Shown in pieces: positions 4,120-58,553 of a stretch of DNA of 58,553 bases (position 1 is its first letter; each line of letters opens with the position of its first letter). The stretch is taken from assembly GCA_011390785.1 (NCBI GenBank), contig JAABRR010000029.1:1-58553 (forward strand), written 5' to 3'. The DNA is from Sphingobacteriia bacterium (GTDB lineage: Bacteria > Bacteroidota > Bacteroidia > Bacteroidales > UBA7960). Under the pieces are notes generated by a model that saw only the letters and a program-made list of their open reading frames with translations, had not been told where the DNA came from and made no database searches. Made by a program: the position numbers and the translations under genes.

Positions 4120-4144
4120 AAATTGGTCAATCTTTTTTTCTAAT

Positions 4145-4161
4145 CCTGCAGGGATTGCAGG
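4145..4161 (+). terminator. Small hairpin after the GH78-like gene
   Basis: CCTGCA-GGGAT-TGCAGG forms a 6-bp perfect stem 25 bases after the stop codon of the GH78-like gene. There is no following T-run, so it could be a factor-dependent stop or an RNA 3' end protector rather than an intrinsic terminator. Confidence 0.35.
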
Positions 4162-4189
4162 TTTCTAGCAATAATTTGAAAGGTGTTTG

Positions 4190-4246
4190 TTCGACCCCGA
4201 TTGGGGTCGTAGAATTCTATTTCTCATTTCTGCTATAAACCTTTGA
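4190..4246 (+). repeat. Dispersed hairpin element, GACCCC family, copy 1
   Basis: CGACCCC-GATT-GGGGTCG forms a 7-bp perfect stem (4192-4198 with 4203-4209). It is followed 25 bases later by TATAAACCTTTGA (4234-4246). The same two blocks in the same order, with a 27-base gap, occur on the opposite strand at 22305-22363. This identifies a dispersed intergenic element of about 57 bp rather than a local terminator. Confidence 0.65.
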
Positions 4247-4347
4247 TGCCTTCATCATCGATTGTTAAACTGACATTAAAAACCTTATCAAATCTAAAGT
4301 TTTGGTAATAATACCAGCATCTGATGAAATTAATGGCAGGTTATTTT

Positions 4348-22031: not shown

Positions 22032-22103
22032 AAACCTTATTTCTTTTTTCAACCTTAGTAGCTTATTGGATTACAGGAAAAATCAAAACCTTATTACCTT
22101 ATT
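22032..22103 (+). repeat. Dispersed AACCTTATT element, copy 1
   Basis: The element begins AAACCTTATTTC, continues with CAACCTTAGTAG after a short T-rich stretch, and ends AAACCTTATTACCTTATT, about 72 bp in total. The same blocks, in order and at the same spacing, occur on the minus strand at 51366-51437, and the first half again at 51479-51523. The middle 25 bp are not conserved. Confidence 0.75.
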
Positions 22104-41569: not shown

Positions 41570-42838
41570 ATGGAAGATACTATTACAACAACTACTGAAA
41601 TAACTGCTGAAATGCTTGATGCCTTATCTCATTCTATTAATAATGTTTGGGTATTGGTTGCTGCCATTCTGGTTATGTTTATGCAGGCTGGGTTTGCCAT
41701 GGTGGAAGCAGGTTTTACAAGAAGGAAGAATACTGCCAATATCATGATGAAAAACCTTATGGACTTTTCTATCGGAGCCCTAATTTATTGGACCATTGGA
41801 TACTCCCTAATGTATGGTGAGTCAATCATGGGTTTCATTGGCGGTTTTGATCTTGCCTTTTTTACCAGTGATGGGATAGGTGACTATGCTGATAATACTG
41901 ATATTCTTTTCCAGACCGTGTTTGCAGCAACAGCTGCTACCATTGTTTCAGGTGCCATGGCTGAAAGAACCAAATTTCACGCTTATTTGATTTTTTCTGT
42001 GTTCATAACGCTGATTATTTATCCTGTTTCCGGCCATTGGCTCTGGGGTGGTGGTTGGTTGAGTGAGTTGGGCTTTATTGATTTTGCCGGCTCTACCATT
42101 GTTCACTCTGTTGGTGCGTGGGTTGGTTTAGCAGGTGCTATTATTATTGGCCCACGTTTGGGTAAATATGTAAACGGTAAGCGTATTCCAACAGCTATAC
42201 CCGGACATAATCTCGCTTTTGGAGCCTTAGGTGTATTCATCCTTTGGTTTGGATGGTTTGGTTTCAATGCAGGGAGTCAGTTAGGCGCTGCAGGTGCCGA
42301 GAACACTGTTGCTATTGGTCACATTGCACTTACCACCAACCTTTCTGCTGCGGCTGGTGCTGTTGCCGCTATGCTAACAGCTTATGCACGCTATAAAAGG
42401 CCCTCGCTCAGTTTATCTCTCAACGGCGCACTGGCAGGTTTGGTCGCTATTACCGCAGGTACTGCGGCTGTTTCACCGGGAGGTGCTGTTATTATCGGTT
42501 TGATGGCCGGTGTTATACTTGTGTTTAGTGTTGAATTTCTTGACCAAAAACTAAAAGTTGATGATCCTGTGGGCGCTATTTCTGTGCACGGCGTAGTGGG
42601 TGCTTTTGGTACCCTCATGGTTGGTGTTTTTGCCGTTGATGGCGGTTTGCTATATGGCGGTGGATTTGCACAGCTCGGAATTCAGGCCATTGGCGTTGTA
42701 GCAGTTTTTGGCTGGGCATTTGTTATGGGCCTTATCCTGTTCAGTATATTGAAAGGTACCAACAATCTGCGTGTTTCTAAACGTATCGAAGAAGAAGGTC
42801 TTGATATTTATGAGCACGGTGAAAGTGTTTATAATTAA
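41570..42838 (+). CDS. amtB: Ammonium transporter (Amt/MEP/Rh)
   Basis: 422 residues, 11 predicted membrane helices. WVLVAAILVMFMQAGFAMVEAGF is helix 1 with the family start, and NIMMKNLMDFSIGALIYWTIGYSLM the next. The family signature DFAGSTIVHSVGAWVGLAGAI carries the first pore His (HSVG), and VDDPVGAISVHGVVGAFGTLMVG carries the second (HGVVG). The channel conducts NH3/NH4+ across the inner membrane. It ends the barrel/P-II/Amt operon and is followed by a strong intrinsic terminator. Confidence 0.96.
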   Translation: MEDTITTTTEITAEMLDALSHSINNVWVLVAAILVMFMQAGFAMVEAGFTRRKNTANIMMKNLMDFSIGALIYWTIGYSLMYGESIMGFIGGFDLAFFTSDGIGDYADNTDILFQTVFAATAATIVSGAMAERTKFHAYLIFSVFITLIIYPVSGHWLWGGGWLSELGFIDFAGSTIVHSVGAWVGLAGAIIIGPRLGKYVNGKRIPTAIPGHNLAFGALGVFILWFGWFGFNAGSQLGAAGAENTVAIGHIALTTNLSAAAGAVAAMLTAYARYKRPSLSLSLNGALAGLVAITAGTAAVSPGGAVIIGLMAGVILVFSVEFLDQKLKVDDPVGAISVHGVVGAFGTLMVGVFAVDGGLLYGGGFAQLGIQAIGVVAVFGWAFVMGLILFSILKGTNNLRVSKRIEEEGLDIYEHGESVYN

Positions 42839-44666: not shown

Positions 44667-45709
44667 AAAAATTGTTTTTAGCAGTTTTTCTGCCGTTGCT
44701 TATCCTTTTTTCATCCTGCCAGAAGGAAAGCCGGCCAAGAGTATTTGTTTTTACCGATATCAATATCGATTCAGGCGATCCAGACGATCGCCAGTCGTTG
44801 ATACATCTTTTGTGGTATGCCGATGAACTGCAAATAGAAGGCATTGTTCCCGATCGGTGGCAGGCCAAAGGTTACGAAGCCTGTATGATGGCTCTCAAAG
44901 CCTACTCAAAGGATTACCAGTTGTTCAGTTTCAATGAAAAGGGATTTACCGATCCACGGAAAATAGAAGAACGGATAGCTAAAGATCTTGATCAGGCAAT
45001 TGAATTATTTCACCAGGCTGCTTCCAGCTCAAACGATCCATTGTATGTTCTCATCTGGGGTAATATGGCCAATTTCGGCAAAGCCCTAAAGGCTCATCCT
45101 GAACTGGCCAACAACATAAGGGTCATCTCCATAGGTACTCACCTGATGATGGAAGCATACCGCCCACATATACCCCCTGGCTGGGAAGTTACAGAAAAAC
45201 CATGCGAGCAATCCAACTGGAATGGCGGGGAAAGAAACGATATTTACAACGATGATCGATTCAAAAACATGTGGTGGCTGGAGATAAACTGGACCTACGA
45301 AGGGATGTTTTCGGGTGATGAACCCAGTGAAATGTATCAAAAACTATTAGCTTACGGAGCAATGGGAGAGCATATGATTGAAGTGACCAAAAACGAACCC
45401 TGGGCCCGCTATTTCAGGGTTGGAGATACCCCGTCGGTACTTTACGTTATCGATCCCCGTCAAAATTTAGATGACCCTACCCAAAGCAGCTGGGCGGGAA
45501 GATTCATAAAACCCTTTCCATCAGAAAGACCCAACTATTATACCGATGAAAATGGTCCGGTAGAATGGGACTACCAGAATCCCTGCAATACCTGGGAGAA
45601 CCATGTAGCCCTAAATCAGCATGCCCGCAGCACCCTCGAGAACGAAAGACCTGATATGTATGAATCATTGCTGGAAAAGCTGGATCAAATAACGGGCATC
45701 AGGCAATAA
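44663..45709 (+). CDS. Nucleoside-hydrolase-like (DUF1593) lipoprotein
   Basis: 348 residues. The lipobox is FSSC with Cys19. VFVFTDINIDSGDPDDRQSL is the Asp-rich metal site of the inosine-uridine hydrolase fold, as in DUF1593 proteins, with YVLIWGNMANFGKAL and RVISIGTHLM later. DUF1593 proteins often carry cellulose-binding annotation and occur near plant or algal polysaccharide genes; their reaction is not settled. Translationally coupled to the upstream propeller lipoprotein, suggesting joint function at the outer membrane or in the periplasm. Confidence 0.8.
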   Translation: MKKLFLAVFLPLLILFSSCQKESRPRVFVFTDINIDSGDPDDRQSLIHLLWYADELQIEGIVPDRWQAKGYEACMMALKAYSKDYQLFSFNEKGFTDPRKIEERIAKDLDQAIELFHQAASSSNDPLYVLIWGNMANFGKALKAHPELANNIRVISIGTHLMMEAYRPHIPPGWEVTEKPCEQSNWNGGERNDIYNDDRFKNMWWLEINWTYEGMFSGDEPSEMYQKLLAYGAMGEHMIEVTKNEPWARYFRVGDTPSVLYVIDPRQNLDDPTQSSWAGRFIKPFPSERPNYYTDENGPVEWDYQNPCNTWENHVALNQHARSTLENERPDMYESLLEKLDQITGIRQ

Positions 45710-45913
45710 TCTGATCCGTAACAGGGCCTAAATACTTATCCAGAAAACCCGTATCTGATTTTTTGGTTTCCTCGCAAAGTTGCAATGAAGAAATAGATAT
45801 TCGCTAATTACTCACTTTGGGGTTTATCTGTGATCCGATCAGGAATATTTCAACATTAACACACATTCAAACGTTACATTACCTGTTTAATAGTAACCAC
45901 ACCTTTCCTTTTT

Positions 45914-47686
45914 ATGAGCAATGAAGATCTGAAGAAAAACATAACACTATCGGGTTTACGCAAATTATTTAAGCTTTACCATTACATGAAGCCCTACAAA
46001 TGGGAATATGCCCTGGGGTTATTGTTCCTGTTGGGATCGAGCGGTGCCAGCCTGGTATTTCCAAAATTGCTGGGCGAATTGGTAGATTATGGCAACCAGG
46101 GAATTCTGGGCGAGCAGATCAACCGTATAGCGCTCATACTAATTGTGGTGTTGGTGGTTCAATCGGTATTTTCCTATTTTCGAATATTTCTGTTTGTGCG
46201 GGTGGCAGAAAAAACCCTTGCCGACTTGCGCCAAAGCACCTTCAACCATTTGATAAGACTTCCCATGAAGTTTTTTCAACAAAGGCGCGTGGGCGAACTC
46301 AACAGCCGGATATCTTCAGACATTACCCTTTTGCAGGATGCACTTACCTCCACTCTGGCGGAGTTTATCAGGCAACTCATCATCATTATTGGGGGTGTAA
46401 GTTTAATGGTAATGACATCTTACAAACTCACCCTTTTTATGCTGGCCATTTTGCCGGTTGTTGTTCTCCTGGTAGGATTTTTCGGGCGGTATATACGCAG
46501 GCTCAGCAAACTGGCTCAGGCACAGGTAGCAGATTCAAACACCATTGTAGAAGAAACCTTACAGGGCATACAAAGTGTAAAAACCTTTACCAACGAGTTT
46601 TTCGAAATGGGCCGCTATCGCATTAAAACCAAAGAGATTGCCCAAACAGGAATTAAAAACGGCAAATTGAGGGGGGCTTTCACTTCCTTCATTATATTAG
46701 GATTGTTCGGAACCATGGTGGCAGTAATCTGGAAAGGCAGTACCCTGCTTGCCAGTGGCGATATTGCAGCCGGCGAACTATTCTCCTTTGTTATCTACAC
46801 TGTTTTTATTGGTGGCACTATTGGTGGATTAGCCGATGTTTTTGCCCGGCTTCAGAAATTTATTGGTGCCACCGAAGACCTGCTCGAAATCTTTAACGAA
46901 GTTCCCGAACCGGTTGAAGACCTGTCAAAAGGAAAAAGCAATCTGGCATTGCAGGGCGGTGTAAAGTTGAACCATCTCCACTTTAGTTACCCCAACCGAA
47001 CTGATTTTGAAGTGATCAGGGAAATAAATGCCAATATTCTGCCCGACTCGCTGGTAGCCCTGGTAGGACCCAGTGGAGCTGGCAAATCCACCCTTGTTTC
47101 ATTGCTCCTCAGGCTGTATGACCCTACATCAGGCAACATTTTCTTTGATGAAACCGACAGCCGCAATATTCCTGTTTCGGTGTTAAGAAGCCAAATGGCT
47201 ATTGTACCGCAGGATATTTTCCTTTTCGGGGGCACTATTCGCGAAAATATTGCCTACGGAAACACCAATGCCACTGACCAAATGATTGAAGATGCTGCCC
47301 GTAAAGCCAATGCCTGGGAGTTTATCAGTAGTTTTCCTTCCAGATTGGATACCCTGGTGGGCGAACGGGGTACACAACTTTCAGGTGGCCAGCGCCAGCG
47401 CATCGCCATAGCACGTGCTGTACTAAAAGACCCCAAAATACTGATCCTTGACGAAGCCACATCCTCCCTCGATTCAGAAAGCGAACGCCTGGTGCAGGAT
47501 GCGCTCGAAAAGCTGATGAAAGGGCGTACATCCATCGTAATTGCCCACCGGCTTTCCACCATCCGCAAAGCCGACCTGATACTCGTAATCGATAATGGCC
47601 GGGTGGTAGAACAAGGCACCCATCACGATCTGTTAAACTCAGAAGTGGGCCTGTACCGAAATCTGAGCGAGTTGCAGTTTCAGTAG
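45914..47686 (+). CDS. ABC exporter, fused permease and ATPase
   Basis: 590 residues. A six-helix type I exporter membrane domain (about 20-320) precedes an ATPase domain (about 345-585). Walker A is GPSGAGKSTLVSLL, the Q-loop PQDIFLF, the signature LSGGQRQRIAIARA, Walker B ILILDEATSSLD and the H-loop IAHRLST. Similar to MsbA/lipid or multidrug exporters. As a homodimer it moves lipids, drugs or peptides outward across the inner membrane; the cargo is not given by context. No partner genes. Confidence 0.92.
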   Translation: MSNEDLKKNITLSGLRKLFKLYHYMKPYKWEYALGLLFLLGSSGASLVFPKLLGELVDYGNQGILGEQINRIALILIVVLVVQSVFSYFRIFLFVRVAEKTLADLRQSTFNHLIRLPMKFFQQRRVGELNSRISSDITLLQDALTSTLAEFIRQLIIIIGGVSLMVMTSYKLTLFMLAILPVVVLLVGFFGRYIRRLSKLAQAQVADSNTIVEETLQGIQSVKTFTNEFFEMGRYRIKTKEIAQTGIKNGKLRGAFTSFIILGLFGTMVAVIWKGSTLLASGDIAAGELFSFVIYTVFIGGTIGGLADVFARLQKFIGATEDLLEIFNEVPEPVEDLSKGKSNLALQGGVKLNHLHFSYPNRTDFEVIREINANILPDSLVALVGPSGAGKSTLVSLLLRLYDPTSGNIFFDETDSRNIPVSVLRSQMAIVPQDIFLFGGTIRENIAYGNTNATDQMIEDAARKANAWEFISSFPSRLDTLVGERGTQLSGGQRQRIAIARAVLKDPKILILDEATSSLDSESERLVQDALEKLMKGRTSIVIAHRLSTIRKADLILVIDNGRVVEQGTHHDLLNSEVGLYRNLSELQFQ

Positions 47687-47949
47687 AAACAACGTTTTGT
47701 AGAAAAGAATAGCTGCTCACAAACTAAAGAGAATTCTGGATGCTTTTTTTGATGGGCTTTTCAGGTTTTTCTATATTCATGGGTCATTAATAGGTAAGTT
47801 ATTGCATAAAAATTTCTAAATTCGCTACTTTTTCAATCGGGCCAGCAGTGAGCTCTTATTTATTAATGCTAAACGGCCTTTAATGGAAGTATCTGAGATA
47901 GTAAAATAATATCTTAGACTGTGAAATTTTATCCATAAAAACCAATCTA

Positions 47950-49596
47950 ATGATCAAAAGTCCACTTCAAAAAGCACGTGCGGGCTATCAACCCAAATTA
48001 CCCCAAACCCTTATTGGTTCAGTAAAAATTATGGAAGAAGGTAATTCCGAGCCCAAAACAGACAAGGAAGAAATCAAAAGCCTGTTTCCCCATACATACG
48101 GAATGCCTTTACTGGTTTTCCAGGAATCGGATGAACAAAAAAGCTTTAAGCCCATCAATGTGGGCATCATCCTGTCAGGCGGACAGGCCCCTGGTGGGCA
48201 TAATGTGATTTCAGGACTGTTCGATGGATTGAAAAAACTAAACAGCGATAGTAAACTCTATGGATTTCTGGGCGGCCCTTCGGGGCTGGTAAACAATCAA
48301 TACCAGGAGCTTACCGCTGATATTATTGATGAATACCGCAATACCGGGGGATTTGATATCATTGGTTCAGGCCGCACCAAGCTTGAAGAAAAAGAGCAAT
48401 TCGACAAAGGGTTGGTGAATTGCAAAAAGCTTGGAATCAATGCGCTTGTGGTTATTGGTGGCGACGATTCCAATACCAATGCATGCGTATTGGCCGAATA
48501 TTACAAAGCCATTGGAGCAGGCATACAGGTAATCGGTTGCCCAAAGACGATTGATGGAGATTTAAAAAATAAGATGATCGAAGTTTCTTTCGGCTTCGAT
48601 ACCGCCTGCAAGGTCTATTCCGAGCTTATCGGAAATATTCAGCGCGATGCCTATTCTGCAAAAAAGAACTGGCACTTTATAAAACTGATGGGCCGTTCTG
48701 CATCACACATTACCCTGGAGTGCGCCCTGCAAACCCAACCCAATATTGCTCTTATTTCAGAAGAAGTAGAAGCAAAAGAAATGACGCTGATTCAGGTAGT
48801 AGATTCCATTGCCGATACCATTGTAAAGCGTGCCAACAATGGCGATAATTTCGGAACAGTATTGATCCCCGAAGGAATTATTGAGTTTATCCCTCAGTTC
48901 AAAAATCTCATACAGGAACTCAATGACCTATTGGCCAAATACAACGATGAATTCCTAAGTCTTGAGACAGATCAGGAAAAACGGGAGTTTTTAGCAGTTA
49001 AGCTCTCAAGGGAATCAGAAAACCTTTATGATAATCTTCCCAACGACATTTCCGACCAGCTAATTCTGGATCGCGACCCACATGGGAATGTAATTGTGTC
49101 AAGAATCGAAACAGAAAAGCTACTTGTTAAAATGGTGGAAAAACGTCTCAAGATATACAGGCAGGAAGGTGCTTACAAAAGCAAATTCACTCCACAAAAC
49201 CATTTCTTTGGCTATGAAGGCCGGTGTGCTGCACCATCCAACTTCGACACCAACTATTGCTATGCCCTGGGTTCAACAGCTGCTATTCTTATTACAAATG
49301 AGAAAACAGGCTACATGACATCCGTAAGAAACCTGGTTGCCAATGCCGAAGACTGGGTTTGTGGCGGAACACCCATTACCGGCATGATGAACCTGGAGAA
49401 ACGCCATGGCGAAATGAAACCTGTTATCAAAAAAGCGCTGGTGGAACTGGATGGTGCACCGTTTAAGTTTTTCGCCGGGCATCGTGATAACTGGGCCATC
49501 AATTCCAAATATATTTTCCCGGGCCCAATCCAGTATTTCGGACCGGCAGAAGTATGTGATGCACCATCAAAAACACTGGTATTGGAAAATCAATAA
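47950..49596 (+). CDS. pfp: Pyrophosphate-dependent 6-phosphofructokinase
   Basis: 548 residues, the long plant-beta-like form. [16 protein letters not shown] is the phosphate-donor loop, GGDDSNTNA (Asp172, Asp173) is the PPi-specific replacement of the GGDGT of ATP-PFKs, and CPKTIDGDL is the F6P/catalytic motif with the base Asp. [15 protein letters not shown] is the F6P-binding segment. The enzyme interconverts fructose-6-phosphate and fructose-1,6-bisphosphate with PPi, saving ATP, which is frequent in Bacteroidota and anaerobes. Its stop codon is 8 bp from that of the convergent araC-type gene. Confidence 0.95.
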
Positions 49597-49604
49597 TACA
49601 TGAC

Positions 49605-50474
49605 TTACCCAACCTCCCCGCGCGCTCCCGGATTTACAATGCTCAGGTTCAGCAACCTGTATTTCCCGGGCGACTGGCCATATTTGGCTTTGAACAGGCG
49701 GTTAAAATAAGAGGGATTTTCGAAGCCGGTTTCAAAAACAATCTGGCCAACGGGATGGGTAGTATTTCGCAATTGTTTGGCGGCTTCCAGCAGGCGGATG
49801 TTGTTGATGAATTCGCTGGGGGTGATGCTGAGATATTTTTTCAGAGACCTCGTTAAATGCTCCTGTGTTTTGCCCGAAAGTTCAATAAAGCGTGGAATCC
49901 CCTTTTGGTAATTCTGCGGTTTTTCCATTTGATGGCAGGCAGCTGATAGCCAATGCGGTAAGGAATTACCCGATTGCGAAGGCTTTTTGTTAAGAATCAC
50001 CAAAGCTTGTATCAGCAGCGCCCGGAAAAGGAATTGCAGCTCAATCGTGCTGGCCAATCCTGCTAGTTTGAAAATATTTTCAAAAACAGCCAGCAGGGCA
50101 CTCAGCGAGTTATTGTCAGGCAATACTTTGCGCTCCGTCACTGGCAGCGATTCAAAACCCGGACATTGCAGGTAATTCCTGGCCTGTTCATACTCTCCTA
50201 TAGTGAATGCAACATTGGTAATGATGGCCGGTATACCTTCTGGAGTTGACTGGAAGTAGTGATGGTCGGTGGGATGGATGAAACATATCTCTCCCGGTTT
50301 CAACAAATATTTTTCATCGTTGTGATAATGGATTAGCTCTCCCTGTCGCAATATAAAGAACTCATAGAAATCGTGGGTATGTGTTCCCGTTTTTTGTGTT
50401 CCAGAGAAAACAGTGTCTGCAATAAAGAACCCGGAGCCGGAGTCAAATATGTCAATATAATTTAAGTTATCCAT
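49605..50474 (-). CDS. AraC-family transcriptional regulator with cupin sensor domain
   Basis: 289 residues from the ATG at 50474. A frame extended to a TTG at 50507 exists, but that codon belongs to the -7 promoter element TATATTTG (50512-50505), so ATG is preferred. An AraC-type cupin domain (about 10-120) contains THTHDFYEFFIL and KPGEICFIHPTDHHYF, whose His residues suggest sugar or metal sensing. The C-terminal helix-turn-helix pair is TQEHLTRSLKKYLSITPSEFI and VGQIVFETGFENPSYFNRLFKAKYGQSP. It is divergent from the PhyH dioxygenase gene with ~140 bp between start codons, so it probably controls that promoter and perhaps the glycyl radical genes beyond. Confidence 0.9.
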   Translation of the reverse strand: MDNLNYIDIFDSGSGFFIADTVFSGTQKTGTHTHDFYEFFILRQGELIHYHNDEKYLLKPGEICFIHPTDHHYFQSTPEGIPAIITNVAFTIGEYEQARNYLQCPGFESLPVTERKVLPDNNSLSALLAVFENIFKLAGLASTIELQFLFRALLIQALVILNKKPSQSGNSLPHWLSAACHQMEKPQNYQKGIPRFIELSGKTQEHLTRSLKKYLSITPSEFINNIRLLEAAKQLRNTTHPVGQIVFETGFENPSYFNRLFKAKYGQSPGKYRLLNLSIVNPGARGEVG

Positions 50475-50504
50475 AAGGAAGATGCTGTCTGATTGATTCA
50501 ATTG

Positions 50505-50512
50505 CAAATATA
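50505..50512 (-). promoter_or_regulatory. -7 promoter element of the araC-type gene
   Basis: Minus-strand TATATTTG matches TAnnTTTG. Its last three bases are the TTG that a naive gene call would take as the start codon. Confidence 0.6.
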
Positions 50513-50554
50513 TGTCATTTAAAGATCAATATAGTGCAAAAACTGTCAATCGGG

Positions 50555-50588
50555 TTGTTTTTTTATGAGATGCCCAACAGTAAATTTG
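50555..50588 (+). promoter_or_regulatory. Promoter of the PhyH dioxygenase gene
   Basis: TTG (50555-50557, in GTTGTTTT) and TAAATTTG (50581-50588) match the -33/-7 elements with near-ideal spacing; the start codon follows 25 bases later. Direct TGTCA boxes (50513, 50544) upstream are possible AraC contacts. Confidence 0.65.
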
Positions 50589-50613
50589 TATTAAACTTTA
50601 AAACATTACAGAC

Positions 50614-51345
50614 ATGAACACTATTGATGCAAAATTTTACCAGGATAACGGCTATTATCTTTTCAAGAAACCCTTGCTAAACCAGGAGAAGTTTCAGACC
50701 CTCACCAATATTTTCGAAGAACTCGTTAGCAGCTCCGAAGGGTTAAGGGGAGACGAACATGATACACCACATTTTAAGGATAAGCGTTTGCTTGATATTC
50801 TTCGTTCGGAAGAAGTACTGGATGTTGTGCAGCAAGCCATTGGTCCCAATATCGGTTTATGGAGCAGTCATTTCATCAGCAAGGAGCCATTTATTGGACG
50901 CAAAACCCCGTGGCACGAAGACAGCGCCTATTGGAACGGTCGTTTCGACCGGCTTGACAAGATCGTGACCATCTGGCTGGCGCTGGATAATTCAACCCTT
51001 GAAAATGGTTGCATGGGTGTTGTTCCCGGTAGCCATAATAATGGCTTCTCTGATTATGTGGAGGTGGATTCAGCAACCAATACCTTTGGCAGCGAAATCA
51101 GGCAGGATCAGGTTGATATTGACAAAGTGGTTTGGTTTGAACTCAACAAGGGCGAATGTTCGTTGCATGATGGCCGTATCATTCACGGGGCCAATGCCAA
51201 TACCAGCCCCTATCGTCGTTGCGGTTACACCATGCGGTATTTTAGCCTGGATATGAAACTCGATCAGGAGCATCCCGGTAACAAAACGCATAAAATCTTC
51301 TGGTGCCGGGGTGAAAATATTAGAGGAAACCCACTTATTGTTTAG
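50614..51345 (+). CDS. PhyH-type Fe(II)/2-oxoglutarate dioxygenase
   Basis: 243 residues. The 2-His-1-carboxylate iron site is WHEDSAYWNG (His101, Asp103) and IIHGANANTSPYRR (His191), with Arg201/202 for 2-oxoglutarate. NGCMGVVPGSHNNG is the usual core block of phytanoyl-CoA-dioxygenase-like enzymes. It hydroxylates an unidentified small molecule with O2. Divergent from an AraC regulator, and upstream of a glycyl radical enzyme pair on the same strand, 311 bp away. The link of an O2-using enzyme with an O2-sensitive one is unusual. Not a real phytanoyl-CoA hydroxylase by context. Confidence 0.9.
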   Translation: MNTIDAKFYQDNGYYLFKKPLLNQEKFQTLTNIFEELVSSSEGLRGDEHDTPHFKDKRLLDILRSEEVLDVVQQAIGPNIGLWSSHFISKEPFIGRKTPWHEDSAYWNGRFDRLDKIVTIWLALDNSTLENGCMGVVPGSHNNGFSDYVEVDSATNTFGSEIRQDQVDIDKVVWFELNKGECSLHDGRIIHGANANTSPYRRCGYTMRYFSLDMKLDQEHPGNKTHKIFWCRGENIRGNPLIV

Positions 51346-51365
51346 GTTTTTTATTGTATTGAAAA

Positions 51366-51437
51366 ATAAGGTAATAAGGTTTGTTTCTATCATTGTATCA
51401 TGATTACTACTAAGGTTGCAAAACGAAAATAAGGTTT
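51366..51437 (-). repeat. Dispersed AACCTTATT element, copy 2 (inverted)
   Basis: On the minus strand it reads AAACCTTATTTTCG, GCAACCTTAGTAG and finally AAACCTTATTACCTTATT, 72 bp with the same block order as the copy at 22032-22103. Confidence 0.75.
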
Positions 51438-51478
51438 TATTTGTACGATGATTCAACGGTAATAATTCCAGATATTTC

Positions 51479-51523
51479 AAAACCTTATTTCTGAAAATCA
51501 ACCTTAGTAGCCAAATGATACAG
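51479..51523 (+). repeat. Dispersed AACCTTATT element, partial copy 3
   Basis: AAAACCTTATTTCTG, CAACCTTAGTAG and ATACAG match the first half of copy 1; the second half is missing. It faces copy 2, forming a large inverted arrangement. Confidence 0.65.
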
Positions 51524-51533
51524 ATAAAAAAAA

Positions 51534-51580
51534 GCACTGCAGCAGATTCGTAATCAAGGCATTGATGGTATTTGCAGCGC
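51534..51580. repeat. GCGCTGCAGC-type inverted-repeat element, copy 2
   Basis: GCACTGCA (51534-51541) pairs with TGCAGCGC (51573-51580) with one mismatch, around 31 bases. Similar in arm sequence, length and position to the element at 22119-22164. Confidence 0.6.
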
Positions 51581-51589
51581 AACAACACA

Positions 51590-51597
51590 TAATTTTG
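51590..51597 (+). promoter_or_regulatory. -7 promoter element of the glycyl radical activase gene
   Basis: TAATTTTG matches TAnnTTTG, 59 bases before the start codon and just after the repeat hairpin. Confidence 0.45.
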
Positions 51598-51655
51598 ATC
51601 AAACAAATAATCAATCCTTAACCAATACAAATCCTTTCAATATTACAATTAATAA

Positions 51656-52558
51656 ATGACTGGCACCATCTTCGACATACAACGCTTTGCCCTTCACGAC
51701 GGCCCGGGAATACGAACCACCGTATTCCTGAAGGGCTGCCCGTTGAGTTGCTCATGGTGCTGCAATCCCGAATCTCAAAACCCGGCACCCCAGCTGGGTT
51801 ATGATGAAAACAAATGCACCCATTGCCTGAAATGTTCCACCGTTTGCCCAACGGGGGCATTAACGGAAATGGATTCCAGCCTTAGCATCGATTTCTCCCT
51901 CTGCAATACCTGTGGTAATTGTGTGGATGAATGTCCTGAATCGACATTAAAGATCTTTGGTTATGAAGATGATAGCGAAAATATTATCAATCAGGTAGCC
52001 AGAGATAAGGCATATTTTGATAACTCTGGCGGCGGGCTTACCCTTTCGGGTGGTGACCCGCTGTTTCAACCCGAATTTGCCCTTGATCTGCTTAAAAAAG
52101 CAAAAGCATTGAATATCAACACCTGCATCGAAACATCCGCTTTTGCCAGTCAGGATGTCTTTGAAAAGCTGTTGCCCTGGGTCGATTATTTCTATATTGA
52201 TTATAAAGTAACTGGTAATGAGCAGTATAAACGATTTGCCGGAATTTCATTAGTACCCGTGCTTGCAAATCTTGATTTCCTGTGTCGCAACAATGCCCAT
52301 GTAGCGCTGAGGTGCACCATTATACCCGGTGTTAATGACAATGATGACCACTTCAAAGCCATTGCCGGACTGAGCAAGAAATATAATGCCATACGTCAGG
52401 TGCATATTTTGCCTTACCACCGGTATGGTGAATCGAAGTACAAACAGATAGGGATGAAAGTGCCTGAACTGGCAACAGGGGCGGTGAGTGATGAAATGGT
52501 GAATTTGTGGCTGGTTAAGATAAGAGAGTTCGGTGGAAGAGATGTTGTGAAGGGATGA
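51656..52558 (+). CDS. Glycyl radical enzyme activating enzyme (radical SAM, with two ferredoxin clusters)
   Basis: 300 residues. The radical SAM cluster motif Cys28-x3-Cys32-x2-Cys35 sits in FLKGCPLSCSWC after GPGIRTTVF. Two 4Fe-4S ferredoxin motifs are inserted (Cys54/57/60/64 and Cys83/86/89/93), the arrangement of CutD/HpdA/GRE-type activases rather than of the shorter PflA. GGGLTLSGGDPLFQ and the C-terminal VHILPYHRYGESKY are family blocks. It reduces SAM to a 5'-deoxyadenosyl radical and takes an H atom from the Gly of its partner, here the enzyme encoded 200 bp downstream (Gly755). Confidence 0.94.
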   Translation: MTGTIFDIQRFALHDGPGIRTTVFLKGCPLSCSWCCNPESQNPAPQLGYDENKCTHCLKCSTVCPTGALTEMDSSLSIDFSLCNTCGNCVDECPESTLKIFGYEDDSENIINQVARDKAYFDNSGGGLTLSGGDPLFQPEFALDLLKKAKALNINTCIETSAFASQDVFEKLLPWVDYFYIDYKVTGNEQYKRFAGISLVPVLANLDFLCRNNAHVALRCTIIPGVNDNDDHFKAIAGLSKKYNAIRQVHILPYHRYGESKYKQIGMKVPELATGAVSDEMVNLWLVKIREFGGRDVVKG

Positions 52559-52604
52559 TTTATTTAACACGACATTGGGGTTGAAGCCTCTAATCATTAT
52601 CAGT

Positions 52605-52702
52605 TTGCTTATCCGTTCCGTTTGCGGAACGGCAATAGATAAAAGCAACTGATCAGAATTAGAAGCACTCACTTATCCATTGCTGTCAGTTTAAACTGAC
52701 GG
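52605..52702. repeat. Two hairpin elements between activase and glycyl radical enzyme genes
   Basis: CCGTTCCG-TTTG-CGGAACGG (52613-52632) is an 8-bp perfect stem, extended outward by imperfect TTGCTTATC / GATAAAAGCAA arms. GTCAGTTTAAACTGAC (52685-52700) is a 16-base perfect palindrome. Both hairpins are preceded by CTTATCC, suggesting two copies of one element with divergent stems. They may also adjust expression of the second gene. Confidence 0.6.
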
Positions 52703-52758
52703 AATCAAATGACAAAAATTTCTGGGCTTTAGCTTCATTAACCATAAAAATCAAAAGA

Positions 52759-55092
52759 ATGCCTGACCCAATTTCCACTTCTTTTTCAACCAAAGCCGGT
52801 GTGCTTCCCAACACCCCCGTCAATTCTGTTTTCCCCCATCACAACAAAAACAGATTTACCAACGATCCTAACGGTACGGTTGCAATTCTGAAAAAATTCA
52901 CCGAAACCTATCAGAAATATACCGATGGCCCGAAAGGACTGCGCGAGGTGGAATGCCTTCGGGTGCAGTATCCCATCTATTTTTGCGATATAGATGAGCA
53001 TGATTTGTTCGCCGGTCGCGATGCCTATCCGGCCATAGGTTTTGGCGCACAGGCACATACTTTCTTCGGATATTACATGCAGGAAGAGGAGCTCGATAAA
53101 TTGCTTCATCATAAGGAACTGGATCCGGAAAATGCCAAAGTAATTGAAGAACTTCGCCGGTTTTGGCAACAGGAAAGCGACGCCATAAAAACACGAAATG
53201 CCTACCCCGAAAAGATGCGGCAGGTGCTGGATTCCGACGCCTGGTTTTCCGAACCCATCATTGGAGCGCCTTTGTATCGCATGTCGGGGACACAAATCGA
53301 TTTTGACAAGCTCGTAAGGCTGGGAATACCGGGTTTGCTGAATGAAATCAGGAGTTATAAAAACCGATGCGAAGCAAACACGGAATCCTGGCAGCTATAT
53401 GAAAATATGGAACATGCACTTGCTTTGTTTTCTGAAGTGGCTGTTTTTTATGCAGATATGGCCGCCAAAATGGCAAAAACAGCGTCGTCGGCAAGACAAA
53501 ACGAGCTGTTGCAAATGGAAGTCGGCTTGCGAAACATTGCCGTTGCTGCGCCCGGAAATTTCAGGGAAGCCATACAGCTGGTTTTTCTTTACGCCGACAT
53601 TAGCGGAACCTTCAACTATGGCCGTATGGACGAATACCTGGGCGATTTGTATGTAAAGGATTTGGAATCGGGGCTGATGGATGAAGAAGAAGCCATCAGG
53701 CTTTTATCCAACCTTTGGTACCTGATGGATGGTAAGGGCCATATCTGGGATTGCCGGGTCATTATTGGCGGAAAGGGTAGGCGCAACGAAATCAACGCAA
53801 ACCGGGTTGCCAGAGTAATCATGGAAGCCACTAAACGGGTGAAAGGGATCGTTCCCCAGACCACCCTGCGCTTTTACTATGGCCAGGACCCTGATCTCTA
53901 CAAAATGGCACTGGATGTGATCGCAACCGGAAATCCCTATCCCATGCTCTATAACGATGATGTAAATATTCCATCTGTAATGAATGCCTTTGATCTGCTA
54001 TATGATGAAGCCATTCATTACCTTCCCTTTGGTTGTGGTGAATATGTGATTTATCATAAAAGTGTGGGTACCCCCAGCGGAGTAATCAATCTGCTGCAGG
54101 CACTGCTGGTCACATTGCACAAAGGCGTCAATCCTACATCGGGCAAGGTTATGGGTTTGCCAGGCAGTGAGTTGGGTAAGGTCGAAACATTCGACGATCT
54201 TTTCAATGCCTACAAAAAACAGGTTGAGTTATACGTAGAACAACTAGCCTGGCAGGAAAAACTGGAGTATGATATGGCCGGAACATCAGCCAACTATTTG
54301 TTTTTGAGCATGCTCTATGATGATTGTATTTCAAGCGGAAAGGGAATATTCAGTGGGGGCGTTCGTTACCTGGGTGGCACCATCGAAAGCTATGGCAATA
54401 CCAATGTGGCCGATTCGCTGGTGACTGTTAAGAAACTGGTTTTTGATGATAAAAAACTTACCCTGGATGAATTGATTACAATTCTGGATCACAATTTCGA
54501 AGGATTTGAAAAGGAGCATCGTCGGATGTTGGATTGTCCCAAATTTGGCAATGATGACGATTATGCCGATCAAATCAGGGTGGAAGTCGATCAACATCTC
54601 AACCATTTTGCCCGCAGTATGGGCCCAAAAGTAGGATTGTATTCTTACCTCAACGTGATCATAAACAACAGCGCCAATACTACCATGGGTTTGCTCACCG
54701 CAGCATCTCCCGACGGACGAAAAGCTTTCACTGCAATGGCCAATGCCAATGCCGCTTCGGGCGGAGCTGATAAAAATGGCCTTACTGCCTATCTCAATTC
54801 CATCGTAAAACCTGATACAACCATCCATGCCGGCGCCGTGCAAAACCTGAAGCTTTCCAGAGAACTACTTACGACCTATCGCAGTCAAACGGAATCGCTT
54901 CTGCAAACTTACTTCGAAAAAGGTGGAGCGCAATTAATGATCAACTGCCTTAACCGCACCGATCTGGAAAACGCCATGAAAGAGCCTGAAAAATATCAAA
55001 GCCTGATTGTACGAGTGGGTGGCTTCAGTGCGCGGTTTGTTGACCTATCAAAAGAAGTGCAGCTGGAAATTTTGGGTAGAACGATGTATTGA
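52759..55092 (+). CDS. Glycyl radical enzyme of the PFL-like superfamily, unusual active-site loop
   Basis: 777 residues, the usual size. The glycyl radical site near the C-terminus is VRVGGFSARFVDL, with the radical on Gly755. The thiyl Cys is Cys426 in LPFGCGEYVIYHK. Known relatives differ there: PFL has adjacent Cys (CCVSP), choline lyase, glycerol dehydratase and HPA decarboxylase have GCVEP. Here Glu428 is kept but Val and Pro are replaced by Gly and Tyr. The enzyme cleaves or eliminates from an unidentified substrate by radical chemistry under anoxia. A Glu two residues after Cys is typical of eliminases such as dehydratases and decarboxylases. Its activase lies directly upstream; an AraC regulator and a PhyH dioxygenase are the nearby partners. 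The function is not known. Confidence 0.92.
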   Translation: MPDPISTSFSTKAGVLPNTPVNSVFPHHNKNRFTNDPNGTVAILKKFTETYQKYTDGPKGLREVECLRVQYPIYFCDIDEHDLFAGRDAYPAIGFGAQAHTFFGYYMQEEELDKLLHHKELDPENAKVIEELRRFWQQESDAIKTRNAYPEKMRQVLDSDAWFSEPIIGAPLYRMSGTQIDFDKLVRLGIPGLLNEIRSYKNRCEANTESWQLYENMEHALALFSEVAVFYADMAAKMAKTASSARQNELLQMEVGLRNIAVAAPGNFREAIQLVFLYADISGTFNYGRMDEYLGDLYVKDLESGLMDEEEAIRLLSNLWYLMDGKGHIWDCRVIIGGKGRRNEINANRVARVIMEATKRVKGIVPQTTLRFYYGQDPDLYKMALDVIATGNPYPMLYNDDVNIPSVMNAFDLLYDEAIHYLPFGCGEYVIYHKSVGTPSGVINLLQALLVTLHKGVNPTSGKVMGLPGSELGKVETFDDLFNAYKKQVELYVEQLAWQEKLEYDMAGTSANYLFLSMLYDDCISSGKGIFSGGVRYLGGTIESYGNTNVADSLVTVKKLVFDDKKLTLDELITILDHNFEGFEKEHRRMLDCPKFGNDDDYADQIRVEVDQHLNHFARSMGPKVGLYSYLNVIINNSANTTMGLLTAASPDGRKAFTAMANANAASGGADKNGLTAYLNSIVKPDTTIHAGAVQNLKLSRELLTTYRSQTESLLQTYFEKGGAQLMINCLNRTDLENAMKEPEKYQSLIVRVGGFSARFVDLSKEVQLEILGRTMY

Positions 55093-55104
55093 TTGAAGAT
55101 TTGT

Positions 55105-55254
55105 AATAGGTTGGAGGTCTGGGGTCCGAAGTCCAAAGTATAAAGTATGAAGTTAAAGATTCTTTCCAGTTTCCAACTTACAAATTCCAGATTGTGAATT
55201 GTAGATTACCAGTTACCAGTCACCACTCACCAATTACACATTACAGACTAAAAA
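55105..55254. repeat. Degenerate low-complexity tandem region
   Basis: About 150 bp made of imperfect 5-9 base units: GTCCGAAGTCCAAAGTATAAAGTATGAAG at the left, then ACCAGTTACCAGTCACCA-type units on the right. No coding features. The left part is the reverse complement in style of the cggtcttcggtctccggtcttc tract at 22570-22590. It fills the space between convergent genes. Confidence 0.5.
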
Positions 55255-56361
55255 TTATTCAATTTGAACGTTATAAATGCCTTTAATCAACACTTTTTCA
55301 TCCGGAAGTTGAACTAGTAATTCAACAAAATTATTGGTTTTTCGTCCGGTTTCTATTTTAACAGGTTTGAAGAAGTATGCTTCATTGGTTTCATTCTCAA
55401 GGGCCAGTAAATAAGAATCATTTTCTGAATATAGAACAGCAGTTTCAGGAACAGACAGTGCCGAATCGGAAGTAACATACACATCCCCTTCAACAAATTG
55501 GTTGTTCACAAGATTACCTTTGTTCTTAATTTCTGCAAAGCCTTCAATTGATTTGGATTCGTGCATAATTGTGCGGCCCACAGAACTAATCGATGCTTCA
55601 TAGGGATCAGTTGCGTTTCCACCCAAAAAGAAAACTACACGTTGACCCTGTTCAATTTTATTGATGTTTTGTTCAAAAAAGGACAGACGTAACTGATAAG
55701 ATTGATCATCAATAATATCTGCAATTTTTTGTTGTGGTTCAACGTATTGCCCAATGGCTGCATCGATAGCTGCAACAAAACCCCTGATGGGCGATTTGAT
55801 AAAAAAGGATGAATAAAATTCGCCGGTTTCTATTTTCGTAACATCAAGGCCCATGGTTTCAAGTTTGATTTTCAACCCGTTATACCTGGCATTTTCACCC
55901 AGATAATTGCTCTGAGCCAGCAGGTAATCCTTTTCGGTGGTAATATTCTGTTCGTATAATTCTTTGGCCCGCAAAAACTCACTTTTCAACCTTTCGAGCA
56001 GGGCATAAGATTCAGCATAGTCTTTCTGCGTTTCCACAAATTCGTTTCCGGCAACTTCAAAAAGAAGAGAACCCTTATTGATGTTCTGACCCGGTTTAAC
56101 GATAATATTTTTAATCATTCCCGGAATGGGTAAACTAACCTGCGCCTGTCCGGTAACAGCAGGAATGATGGTTCCGGTAAAATGAACCATTTCGGCAAAT
56201 TCGTTAACACCAGGTTCACCTATTTCCATTCCTTCGGCTTCAAATTGGGCTTTGGTGATTTCAATTAAATCTGTTTCAGCAATGGTTTCCTGTTCGGTGT
56301 TGTGGTTACAGGAAAAAATAGACATGCTAAGGGCCAGGGCTATAATTTTATATGCTTTCAT
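55255..56361 (-). CDS. RND efflux periplasmic adaptor (CzcB/CusB-like)
   Basis: 368 residues. The lipobox is IFSC with Cys18 in a lipoprotein signal. FTGTIIPAVTGQAQVSLPIPGMIKNIIVKPGQNINKG is the biotinyl-lipoyl-like half, followed by a coiled-coil hairpin (about 115-175), FIKSPIRGFVAAIDAAIGQYVEPQQ (second half) and a beta-barrel domain. It joins the inner-membrane pump to the outer-membrane factor. It lies 8 bp downstream of the fused pump gene on the same strand. Heavy-metal or divalent-cation export is the usual role of the CzcA-type partner. Confidence 0.9.
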   Translation of the reverse strand: MKAYKIIALALSMSIFSCNHNTEQETIAETDLIEITKAQFEAEGMEIGEPGVNEFAEMVHFTGTIIPAVTGQAQVSLPIPGMIKNIIVKPGQNINKGSLLFEVAGNEFVETQKDYAESYALLERLKSEFLRAKELYEQNITTEKDYLLAQSNYLGENARYNGLKIKLETMGLDVTKIETGEFYSSFFIKSPIRGFVAAIDAAIGQYVEPQQKIADIIDDQSYQLRLSFFEQNINKIEQGQRVVFFLGGNATDPYEASISSVGRTIMHESKSIEGFAEIKNKGNLVNNQFVEGDVYVTSDSALSVPETAVLYSENDSYLLALENETNEAYFFKPVKIETGRKTNNFVELLVQLPDEKVLIKGIYNVQIE

Positions 56362-56369
56362 CGTTTTCG

Positions 56370-58553
56370 TTATTTCGAGTAATAAAGTATTTCTAATGCT
56401 ATTTGATTGTATTTCTGTACGTTATCGAAGTATTCGAGTTGAATCTGAATGGCTGTTTCGTAGCTGTTTACAAATTGAAAAAAGTCAATTTCACCCAGCT
56501 GATACGACTTTAAGGCGGTACTCATGATCTCATCCATAAGGGGTTTTCCTGATGAATTGTAATTTTCGAGCAAAGCATCAAATGTATTAAAGTTGCTGAT
56601 CAATTCGTTGAGTCGATAGTTGATCTGGCTTATCTGATTATCAGCAAAGTGGCTGTGTGCGTCCACCGATATTTTTGCTGCCTGCACCCGGGCTCTGTCG
56701 CTTCTCAGAAACAAGGGTATAGCCATACCCACCGCAAAGCCATGGTAGAATTTTCCATTTTCATAGCTGTTGGACCCCAGGAAGTAATTCAATGAAAAGT
56801 CGGGTGTCATCTTATTTCTTTCAACACGTACAAGAGAATTGTAATATTCCCTTTCCCAATTCAACAGATCATAAATTGGCAGTGAATCGGGTATTGATGC
56901 CACCTGTGGAAGAAGCTCAAGAGTAAGGGGAATTGAAAAATCAGCATCATAATTCATCAATATTTTCAACTTGCTGTAAGCATTTTCAATATCTGTTTTC
57001 AGGCTGGATAGCTGAATGGATACCTGGCTTTTTTTTGCCTGGATATTCAGTACGTTGAGCCTGCTTATGTCTCCTTTTTCGGCTCTTGTTACAGAATTTC
57101 CGAGCAACACGGAGTAAAGGCTGTCAAGGGTAAAAAACATTTCCTGTCTGTTTAGCAATACCTGGTAGTTGAAATACGCACTGGCAACCTGTTTGATCAA
57201 TTCACTTTTCTGTATATCAAGGGTTGCTTCAGAAATGGAAACCTCAATTTGCTTCGTTTTACTTTCTGCCCTGTAAAGTGTTGGAAAACTAAAACTTTGC
57301 TCAATGCTGAATACCTGCAACGGATACCCCTGTTCGGCAATGTTGTTTTGATCGGTGCTATATTCAAATATTGTTTTATCGGGAGAAAATGCAGTACGGG
57401 TAAGTGCTTTGCTTTCATCTACCCTAAGCCCATACGCAGCTATTTCCTTATTGTTCTGCAAGGCAGTATCGATTACATCGTTCAGGGAAAGTGTACTGTT
57501 TTGACCGTAGGATAGCGCAACCGGACTAAAAACCAGGATCAGAATAAGCATCGTTTTGGAACGGATAAAGCGCAAGGGGAAAAACTTAATCCCTTTTACA
57601 TTGTAAAATATTTCAAAAAGCAGGGGAAGTGCGATCATGGTTAACATGGTGGATGTAAACAAACCTCCGATTACTACTGTAGCCAGCGGTCGTTGAACCT
57701 CTGCCCCGGCGCCGGTTGAAATAGCCATTGGTAGAAAGCCCATGGCAGCAGCTCCTGCAGTCAGCAAAACAGGACGTAACCGGTTTTTGGTTCCCTGCAT
57801 GATCAATTCTCGGATATTGGTCATACCCTGGTGTTGAAGTTCTTTCAGATGTTCAATAAGAACAATACCATTGAGTACAGCAATACCAAAGAGCGCAATA
57901 AAACCTATGCCTGCAGAAACGCTGAAAGGCATTCCGCGCATCCATAATAATAAAACGCCACCAACTGTTGCGAGCGGTATGGCTGTAAAAATCATGATGG
58001 CGTCTTTCAATGACTTAAAGGCAAAATGCAGAAATATAAAAATTAGCAGCAAAGCCACCGGCACTGCTATCATTAATCGGTTGGTTGCGTTTTGCAAATT
58101 CTCAAACTGCCCACCATATTCAATATAGTTGCCAGGCGCCATATTTACATTGCTATCTATAAGATCGCGGATATCATCTATTACCGATTTTAAGTCGCGG
58201 TTTCTTACATTAACACTTACCACCACCCTGCGACGTGTATTATCGTGAGATATTTTGGCAGGGCCTTTTGTGTACTGAATTTCAGCCAGTTCAGAAAAAG
58301 GGATCATTTGACCTGTTGATACCGGTACCTGAAGCTGACGAATATCTTCAATATCGGTGCGGTTCTGGTTATCAAAGCGCAACACCATATCGAAGCGCTT
58401 TTCGCCTTCAAAAACAACCCCGGCAATTTTACCCCCAAATGCTGTGGACAGGAAATCGTTCAATGTGCTAATATCGACGCCATAGTAGGCAATCTTACTT
58501 CTGTTATAATCAACCCTTATTTGTGGTAAACCCTCTGTTTTTTCCATGATGAT
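56370..58553 (-). CDS. CzcA/CusA-type RND pump fused to a TolC-like outer-membrane factor (5' end outside window)
   Basis: The frame continues through the window edge, so the first visible codons are internal; ~727 residues are visible, counted below from the Met at 58547. Residues 1-~325 are the C-terminal half of an RND pump (VEYGGQFENLQNATNRL-type periplasmic loop, GIGFIALFGIAVLNGIVLIEH, NRLRPVLLTAGAAAMGFLPMA, RPLATVVIGGLFTSTMLTM). At residue 333 MLILILVFSPVALSYGQ looks like a retained signal peptide, followed without a stop by an outer-membrane efflux protein domain (345-725: LNDVIDTALQNNKEIAAYG, PDFSLNYFLGSNSYENG). Such fusions occur in Bacteroidota CzcA genes. A Met at 57551 could also start a separate outer-membrane factor. 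Confidence 0.9.
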   Translation of the reverse strand: MIMEKTEGLPQIRVDYNRSKIAYYGVDISTLNDFLSTAFGGKIAGVVFEGEKRFDMVLRFDNQNRTDIEDIRQLQVPVSTGQMIPFSELAEIQYTKGPAKISHDNTRRRVVVSVNVRNRDLKSVIDDIRDLIDSNVNMAPGNYIEYGGQFENLQNATNRLMIAVPVALLLIFIFLHFAFKSLKDAIMIFTAIPLATVGGVLLLWMRGMPFSVSAGIGFIALFGIAVLNGIVLIEHLKELQHQGMTNIRELIMQGTKNRLRPVLLTAGAAAMGFLPMAISTGAGAEVQRPLATVVIGGLFTSTMLTMIALPLLFEIFYNVKGIKFFPLRFIRSKTMLILILVFSPVALSYGQNSTLSLNDVIDTALQNNKEIAAYGLRVDESKALTRTAFSPDKTIFEYSTDQNNIAEQGYPLQVFSIEQSFSFPTLYRAESKTKQIEVSISEATLDIQKSELIKQVASAYFNYQVLLNRQEMFFTLDSLYSVLLGNSVTRAEKGDISRLNVLNIQAKKSQVSIQLSSLKTDIENAYSKLKILMNYDADFSIPLTLELLPQVASIPDSLPIYDLLNWEREYYNSLVRVERNKMTPDFSLNYFLGSNSYENGKFYHGFAVGMAIPLFLRSDRARVQAAKISVDAHSHFADNQISQINYRLNELISNFNTFDALLENYNSSGKPLMDEIMSTALKSYQLGEIDFFQFVNSYETAIQIQLEYFDNVQKYNQIALEILYYSK

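Follow-up and report, generated by a model that had tools for sequence, protein, structure and literature searches.

Why a gene for a glycyl radical enzyme (GRE), which would act without oxygen, stands in one row with a gene for an oxygenase that depends on oxygen is the question raised by a locus in a 58,553-nucleotide stretch of Sphingobacteriia DNA (contig JAABRR010000029.1 of assembly GCA_011390785.1; hereafter the window). On the forward strand, open frames for a PhyH Fe(II)/2-oxoglutarate (2OG) oxygenase (positions 50614–51345; Pfam PhyH 1.7e-30), a radical-SAM GRE activase with two Fer4 (4Fe-4S) stretches (51656–52558; Pfam and TIGR02494) and a 777-aa GRE with a Gly-Cys-Gly-Glu (GCGE) active-site loop (52759–55092) follow one another. 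A divergent gene on the reverse strand encodes an AraC-family regulator with a cupin ligand domain (49605–50507; Pfam AraC_binding 1.7e-13, HTH_18 3.8e-21; the ATG at 50474 is the likely start). A sequence-only reading had suggested that the oxygenase and the GRE are an oxic and an anoxic enzyme for one substrate, or a switch between the two. We consider it probable that one regulator drives a radical eliminase and an oxygenase acting on the same carbohydrate-derived compound: common control of PhyH and the GRE is supported by comparisons of regulator and operator sequences, and the shared substrate, the AraC ligand and both reaction types are inferred.

A Regulator Family Common to PhyH and GRE Loci

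Window-type PhyH was sampled in 198 and 194 genomes from the phyla of loci L097 (Planctomycetota) and L057 (Verrucomicrobiota), respectively. It forms a sharply bounded family (>300 bits, vs. <180 for the rest, among the matches listed) whose members are 39–47% identical to the window PhyH, and it was detected in 21 genomes beyond the two seed genomes. Four of these carry a GCGE-type GRE and 17 do not, two of the latter matching some other GRE at the C terminus alone. Neighbourhoods could be inspected for 20 of the 21 (G923 was left out, as were the additional PhyH copies of G777 and G727, and several contigs are short), with AraC, PhyH, GRE and activase genes placed by profiles and other genes by length-based calls, which err in placement where the DNA is GC-rich. 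An AraC of the module type is present in 18 of the 20 and adjoins PhyH in 17, and a GRE and/or activase lies directly beside PhyH in three. At PhyH-only loci, no recurring co-directional partner of the AraC–PhyH pair was found in the neighbourhoods inspected, a sulfatase-like gene cluster near the pair in 3/20 loci being the only repeat seen, which suggests that a single step may suffice to enter central metabolism.

The kinship of the regulators is supported by whole-genome searches with a profile built from nine AraC proteins of GRE loci that have no PhyH in the flank inspected (seven come from genomes without a PhyH match). The PhyH-adjoining AraC ranks first in 14 of the 17 PhyH-only genomes, these 14 having between 5 and 59 AraC matches each, and the top two AraCs of G841, where PhyH and GRE lie on separate contigs, are the one beside each. 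The window AraC heads its own genome with 236.5 bits, vs. 66.5 for the next. An AraC tree separates 37 module AraCs from eight others (99/97), E. coli ChbR falling loosely within the module group, and the PhyH-only rows fall in one clade (100/99) together with four both-enzyme rows and GRE-only L062, itself among the nine sequences behind the profile. Since this clade is planctomycete and verrucomicrobial, taxonomy adds to the grouping.

The regulators also appear to share a binding site. Ten AraC–GRE gaps contain TATCAATATAGCACAA-N8-TATCATTAAAAAACAAGA, two direct repeats ∼22 bp apart that make up a putative 43-bp operator, and a direct-repeat layout is typical of AraC-family sites. The ten training gaps were chosen by a pattern first spotted by eye (L139, with 7-base spacing, and L049 were left out), and each gave a leave-one-out p of 0.002, the minimum possible. 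When the GRE-side matrix was applied to both strands of 16 AraC–PhyH gaps (L161, L180, L183, and L192 were unscored), nine reached p ≤ 0.05 (Fisher 3e-13), including 8/14 from PhyH-only genomes; L185, among the nine, scores negative, and 2/48 random control pieces were positive. These p-values are optimistic because some of the gaps had already been seen before the pattern was chosen. The AraC–PhyH gap of the window holds a candidate half-site on the forward strand, ATCAATATAGTGCAA (50525–50539), which departs from the GRE-side half-site consensus at two positions; such matches number two in the whole window, the other at 42068, vs. 0.26 expected. Alignment of the window intergenic region with that of L144 was no better than with shuffled sequences (59/300 as good).

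The GCGE Clade of Glycyl Radical Enzymes

The window GRE matches the Pfam families PFL-like (PF02901, 7.5e-104) and Gly_radical (PF01228, 4.2e-21) above their cut-offs. Its Cys426 lies in YLPFGCGEYVI (codons of G425-C426-G427-E428-Y429 at 54031–54045, counted from the reading frame) with Glu428 kept, and the radical glycine, Gly755, is placed in an RVGGF loop (codon 55021–55023, forward strand as well) by alignment with RVAGY/RVSGY of other GREs. Thus both the loop and the gene company claimed by the sequence-only reading were confirmed, the latter by Pfam; the AraC gene lies outside the interval 50614–55092 to which it had been assigned, and the activase between PhyH and GRE had gone unnamed. 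An AlphaFold model (pLDDT 91.7) has the normal GRE fold and, among the 50 Foldseek matches listed, a TM-score of 0.79–0.85 to solved GREs at 19–26% identity.

Pyruvate formate-lyase (PFL) has a Cys-Cys active site (CCVSP). The window enzyme has a single Cys, in GCGE, and scores 73.9 bits vs. a cut-off of 994 for TIGR01255, indicating that it is not a PFL. None of 12 listed NCBIfam models reaches its cut-off: TIGR01774 (PFL2/glycerol dehydratase subfamily), the best, gives 329.4 bits vs. 678.2 (339.6 for clade member L039; no match at 1e-100 for L094), and the CutC, HypD, HpsG/HpfG, HPAD, IAD, and PflD (PRK09983) equivalogs give ≤272 bits vs. cut-offs of 1000–1150, which the reference rows L119 (HypD), L127 (CutC), and L134 (HpfG) exceed for their own models. 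The activase surpasses TIGR02494 (327 bits vs. a cut-off of 174), and no activase equivalog cut-off was reached among the 25 matches listed.

Two peptide patterns scanned against genome contigs picked up 78 related loci, 77 of them with a GRE by profile (none was read in L106). The GCGE motif can be read in 73 of the 77, the next residue being Y (56), I (11), F (4), L (1), or M (1); another GC motif is found in two, and no motif was read in the remaining two. It occurs in 0/38 other GREs, which argues against chance. Two frames, L079:8969–12211 (1080 aa) and L081:8894–12208 (1104 aa), are ∼300 aa longer and represent a fusion or a mis-set start. By record title, carriers include Bacteroidetes, Ignavibacteria, Clostridia, Anaerolineae, Spirochaetes, Planctomycetes, Verrucomicrobia, Lentisphaerae, Bifidobacteriaceae, Propionibacteriaceae, Cloacimonadota, Neomarinimicrobiota, KSB1, and Kryptoniota, and within the window's own phylum the clade was detected in eight of 395 sampled genomes at 1e-100, the source genome counted.

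A 106-row FastTree, without rows <690 aa and duplicates and with 27/30 reference loci, places 68 clade rows, all GCGE, in a monophyletic group (support 0.94). In a quick IQ-TREE of 42 rows picked from the 106, the clade split has an SH-aLRT of 100, with HypD (L119), CutC (L127), HpfG (L134), YbiW, and PflD on the opposite side. Residues specific to the clade (≥90% inside, ≤15% elsewhere) include R174, R333, R341, N343, H433, E543, N637, N664, G427, and G754. By these sequence comparisons the GCGE enzymes are a deep, separate clade, assigned by none of the NCBIfam models listed and by no searched paper. The proposals that the loop differs from both PFL and the GCVEP class and that the subfamily lacks an assigned substrate are supported, and firm clustering with a characterised class was not found. 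No paper on the clade was found by title or opening of the abstract among those listed, nor any that ties a GRE to anhydroglucitol, phytanoyl-CoA dioxygenase, GCGE, or PhyH, in a search limited to the openly licensed PMC literature, where absence is weak evidence. In excerpts from this literature, many abundant gut GREs are without assigned function in published analyses (PMC11574389), a GRE network has been built from 14,228 sequences (PMC6181972), and anhydroglucitol is touched on (PMC12965863).

PhyH and its Linkage to the Glycyl Radical Enzyme

The oxygenase exceeds the Pfam PhyH cut-off of 22 with 107 bits, and H101, D103, H191, and R202 are invariant in alignments; we take the first three to be the facial triad and R202 to be the 2OG arginine. 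The model (mean pLDDT 78.8) has the 2OG-oxygenase fold. Nothing in the structure search pointed to a substrate: ThoJ, SnoN, proline hydroxylases, and EvdO2 are each distant (17–24% identity, among matches listed).

Linkage was assessed by searching for PhyH (PF05721) in 79 runs that represent 77 distinct GRE-bearing genomes (G089 = G453 and G282 = G455 counted once; L061, the duplicates L029, L063, and L085, and also L101 and L103–L106 were omitted). PhyH is present in 20 of the 77, in one case below the family cut-off; its distance from the GRE is at most 10 kb in 12 of these and 31 kb in G182, and in seven it was not seen near the GRE. Of the genomes with a single PhyH above the cut-off, 5/11 have it that close, i.e. 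no more than 10 kb away (binomial 8e-10, taking a 20-kb target and 4.5 Mb of genome). PhyH was detected in 126/395 sampled genomes of the window's phylum and in 6/7 of the GRE carriers there besides the source genome (Fisher 0.005). On these linkage counts and the AraC profile ranking, PhyH as a random neighbour was rejected; the gene is not unlinked in relatives, though it was not found in G005 and G008.

The position of PhyH varies: it may precede the activase, follow it, precede the GRE (immediately so in L096 and L097) or lie inside an ATP-binding cassette (ABC) transporter operon. Two unlike PhyH types, sharing 17–20% identity, are linked to the GRE. The second type is found in the Ignavibacteria-type loci L139, L140, L141, and L143 in a sugar ABC-transporter operon with a lactonase and an aldo-keto reductase (AKR), accompanied by GH92 in three of the four; the operon is near the GRE, or 31 kb off in G182. 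In L097 (8217–12358), the genes for PhyH, for an NHL-propeller-like protein of 325 aa and for the GRE almost abut or overlap, and no activase was found within 3 kb.

Oxygen Supply and Gene Context

Haem-copper oxidase (PF00115) was used as an indicator of respiratory type in 59 of the 77 GRE genomes; the 18 left out are GRE-only (16 clostridial gut/rumen genomes, G621, and also G636, which has a sub-threshold PhyH). The oxidase is present in 17/17 genomes with both a GRE and PhyH near it (or farther, as in G182 and G841), in 17/17 PhyH-only genomes and in 5/6 in which PhyH is not seen near the GRE, vs. 6/40 GRE-only genomes (Fisher 7e-10 for 17/17 vs. 6/40). The 4.8-Mb source genome has two oxidase matches, exactly one PhyH match and the window GRE as the sole PFL-like protein found. 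Related bacteria tend to keep whichever enzyme suits their oxygen supply. Both enzymes occur, for example, in a genome labelled Melioribacter roseus, and the GRE alone in Ruminiclostridium cellobioparum termitidis.

Gene context was counted in the 62 loci flanked by ≥1.5 kb on each side, all 78 having been scanned. Neighbourhood clustering covered 65/78 (L056, L058, L066, L074, L084, L085, L092, and L100 were lost in gene calling, and L101 and L103–L106 were low-scoring or fragments), and annotation covered representatives of the clusters together with selected genes. In 49/62 loci an activase is found no more than 3 kb from the GRE. Among the other neighbours are transporters of the sugar ABC type, regulators of the LacI and AraC families, aldose epimerase, lactonase, GFO/IDH, AKR, and zinc-dependent alcohol dehydrogenase (Zn-ADH) proteins, glycoside hydrolases (GH1, GH2, GH3, GH4, GH38, GH42, GH92, GH106, and GH130) and kinases (FGGY, ROK, and PfkB). 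These neighbours point to a carbohydrate-derived substrate. No single recurring sugar is apparent from the annotated neighbours. In L003, whose GRE is 73% identical to that of the window, a class II aldolase gene (3527–4303) lies downstream and points toward the GRE.

Proposed Function and Alternative Explanations

The four genes may constitute a catabolic module for one carbohydrate-derived compound, which the AraC-cupin protein would sense and in response switch on the PhyH–activase–GRE row. By analogy with the known eliminases, the activase would in the absence of O2 generate the Gly755 radical, Cys426 would become a thiyl radical and abstract a substrate hydrogen, Glu428 would accept the proton of the adjacent hydroxyl and a leaving group would be expelled, most likely by cleavage of a C–O bond, giving a carbonyl that AKRs or dehydrogenases could process. 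With O2 present, PhyH would instead hydroxylate the same substrate using Fe(II), 2-oxoglutarate, and O2, providing an alternative entry to metabolism. That the same substrate is treated by two chemistries is suggested because the commonly controlled enzymes replace each other according to respiratory type; AraC kinship, the operator in relatives and the oxidase distribution all favour such an oxic/anoxic pair, as the sequence-only reading had proposed, and the pairing is best regarded as presumptive. More tentatively, and with the balance tipping slightly the other way, the arrangement may be general: this GRE class and unrelated Fe/2OG oxygenases of at least two subfamilies would be an interchangeable oxic/anoxic pair, both breaking one unreactive bond in a substrate of carbohydrate origin, with one AraC family and one 43-bp operator commanding whichever partner is present, so that strict anaerobes have the GRE, facultative organisms both, and aerobes PhyH.

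Several observations weigh against the paired function. PhyH was not found in the nearest relatives searched, G005 (73% GRE identity; its contig begins just before the activase) and G008, and the Ignavibacteria PhyH, which is of the other type, can be as far as 31 kb from the GRE. A module-type AraC (≥60 bits) lies within 2.5 kb of the GRE in only 21/62 loci, and PhyH lies within 10 kb in 8/62 and is absent from that distance in 54/62; the module is not fixed, since other loci show another AraC or LacI. The AraC ranking has exceptions among PhyH-only genomes (rank 3 in G887; no AraC found in G797 and G923) and in G764 and G796, where both enzymes occur together and the module AraC ranks second and fifth. 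In the window itself the full 43-bp operator is not significant (p 0.395), leaving a single clear half-site. Counts across genomes are not phylogenetically independent, and the oxidase pattern is partly expected, since PhyH would be useless in anaerobes whatever its role (34/40 tested GRE-only genomes have no oxidase); its weight lies in the combination with the shared AraC and operator.

If the regulon is shared and the substrates are not, AraC would sense a glycan fragment and PhyH and the GRE would act on separate products, as might be expected from the varied glycoside hydrolases around the GRE and from the sugar ABC-transporter operon in which the Ignavibacteria PhyH sits. We regard this as unlikely: the PhyH-only and GRE-only states track respiratory type, and in the GRE-less genomes inspected the AraC–PhyH pair has no recurring co-directional partner (the sulfatase-like cluster in 3/20 aside). 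There is little to recommend the view that the GRE is an ordinary small-diol (glycerol or propanediol) dehydratase in a sugar locus with PhyH present by chance or hitch-hiking. Its best profile match among solved structures is indeed glycerol dehydratase (1r8w), and Glu428 is conserved, but the residues that correspond in the alignment to H164 and D447, which are functional in that enzyme, are not kept, the H281-S282 loop is six residues shorter, and the PhyH linkage, the AraC profile results and the sugar-type context also count against this view. Consecutive action, in which PhyH hydroxylates and the GRE then eliminates in cells moving between oxic and anoxic zones, would suit the PhyH–activase–GRE order in the window and the position of PhyH just before the GRE in L096 and L097; it is highly improbable, as the GRE occurs in genomes without PhyH and PhyH in genomes without such a GRE, indicating that each is used alone.

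In a special case of the oxic/anoxic pair, the substrate would be an unphosphorylated 1,5-anhydrohexitol, its ring opened by the GRE or its C1 hydroxylated by PhyH to yield a hexose. The guess was made because C1 hydroxylation would yield an ordinary hexose and because GREs have been solved with phosphorylated 1,5-anhydrohexitols, namely, by their PDB titles, YbiW with 1,5-anhydroglucitol-6-phosphate (8id7) and a PflD with 1,5-anhydromannitol-6-phosphate (8id0). GFO/IDH reductases and sugar kinases near relatives would fit, as would the location of E. coli ybiU (PF07350) one gene past ybiV, counting from ybiW. The window GRE is nevertheless only 22–25% identical to YbiW/PflD-type GREs and belongs to a separate clade, and hhalign finds no YbiU–PhyH kinship, so that this choice of substrate is quite doubtful.

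Other Features of the Locus

An extended inverted repeat (RNA fold -66.4 kcal/mol, z -4.9) fills the PhyH–activase gap (51345–51655); it may be a small mobile repeat, since a 74-bp stretch with 77% identity lies at 22032–22103. The activase–GRE gap contains an inverted repeat with 20-nt arms (52586–52666). An Rfam scan of 45000–58553 gave no match above the gathering score. An FNR/CRP-type box, TTGATNNNNATCAA, was set aside, having 84 matches with ≤2 mismatches in the whole window vs. 61 expected, none of them perfect; the one two-mismatch match in the PhyH–activase gap (51589) was not used.

Comparison with Known Systems

The PFL2/glycerol-dehydratase-type eliminases (acting on glycerol and 1,2-propanediol, and including CutC, HypD, and HpsG/HpfG) share with the window GRE the barrel fold, a Cys loop with Glu two residues on, a C-terminal Gly loop and an activase with ferredoxin-like motifs. 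They have GCVE/GCIE and RVAGY, whereas the window clade has GCGE and RVGGF, and the window GRE has shorter loops and clade-specific Arg, His, and Glu residues. E. coli YbiW and PflD are likewise GREs, with a sugar derivative bound in solved structures, and the presence of ybiU near ybiW and of the AraC-type gene yijO near pflD resembles the window layout; phosphotransferase system (PTS) genes lie near E. coli pflD, whereas ABC transport and glycosidase genes lie near the window's relatives. In E. coli MG1655 (857500–863500, L107), ybiW is followed by ybiV and ybiU (PF07350, Gig2-like), a possible parallel GRE–oxygenase neighbourhood. We take PF07350 to have the 2OG-oxygenase fold; YbiU was not retained as a PhyH homologue, the hhalign result not being significant. 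The window PhyH has the facial triad, 2OG arginine and fold in common with EctD, EvdO2, and H11 proline hydroxylase but is ≤24% identical to them (among Foldseek matches listed) and forms its own subfamily.

Pairs of unrelated enzymes, one O2-dependent and one radical-based, that carry out one metabolic step under oxic and anoxic conditions are established for HemF/HemN and the class I/III ribonucleotide reductases. The pair proposed here differs in being catabolic and in having an AraC regulator. GREs are prime targets in the search for new anaerobic chemistry, but predicting what they act on and working with them are both difficult. Should PhyH share its substrate with the GRE, an easy aerobic assay could identify that compound, and the locus would provide both a clear case of one regulator over two unrelated enzymes that swap with oxygen and a natural experiment in metabolic rewiring for O2.

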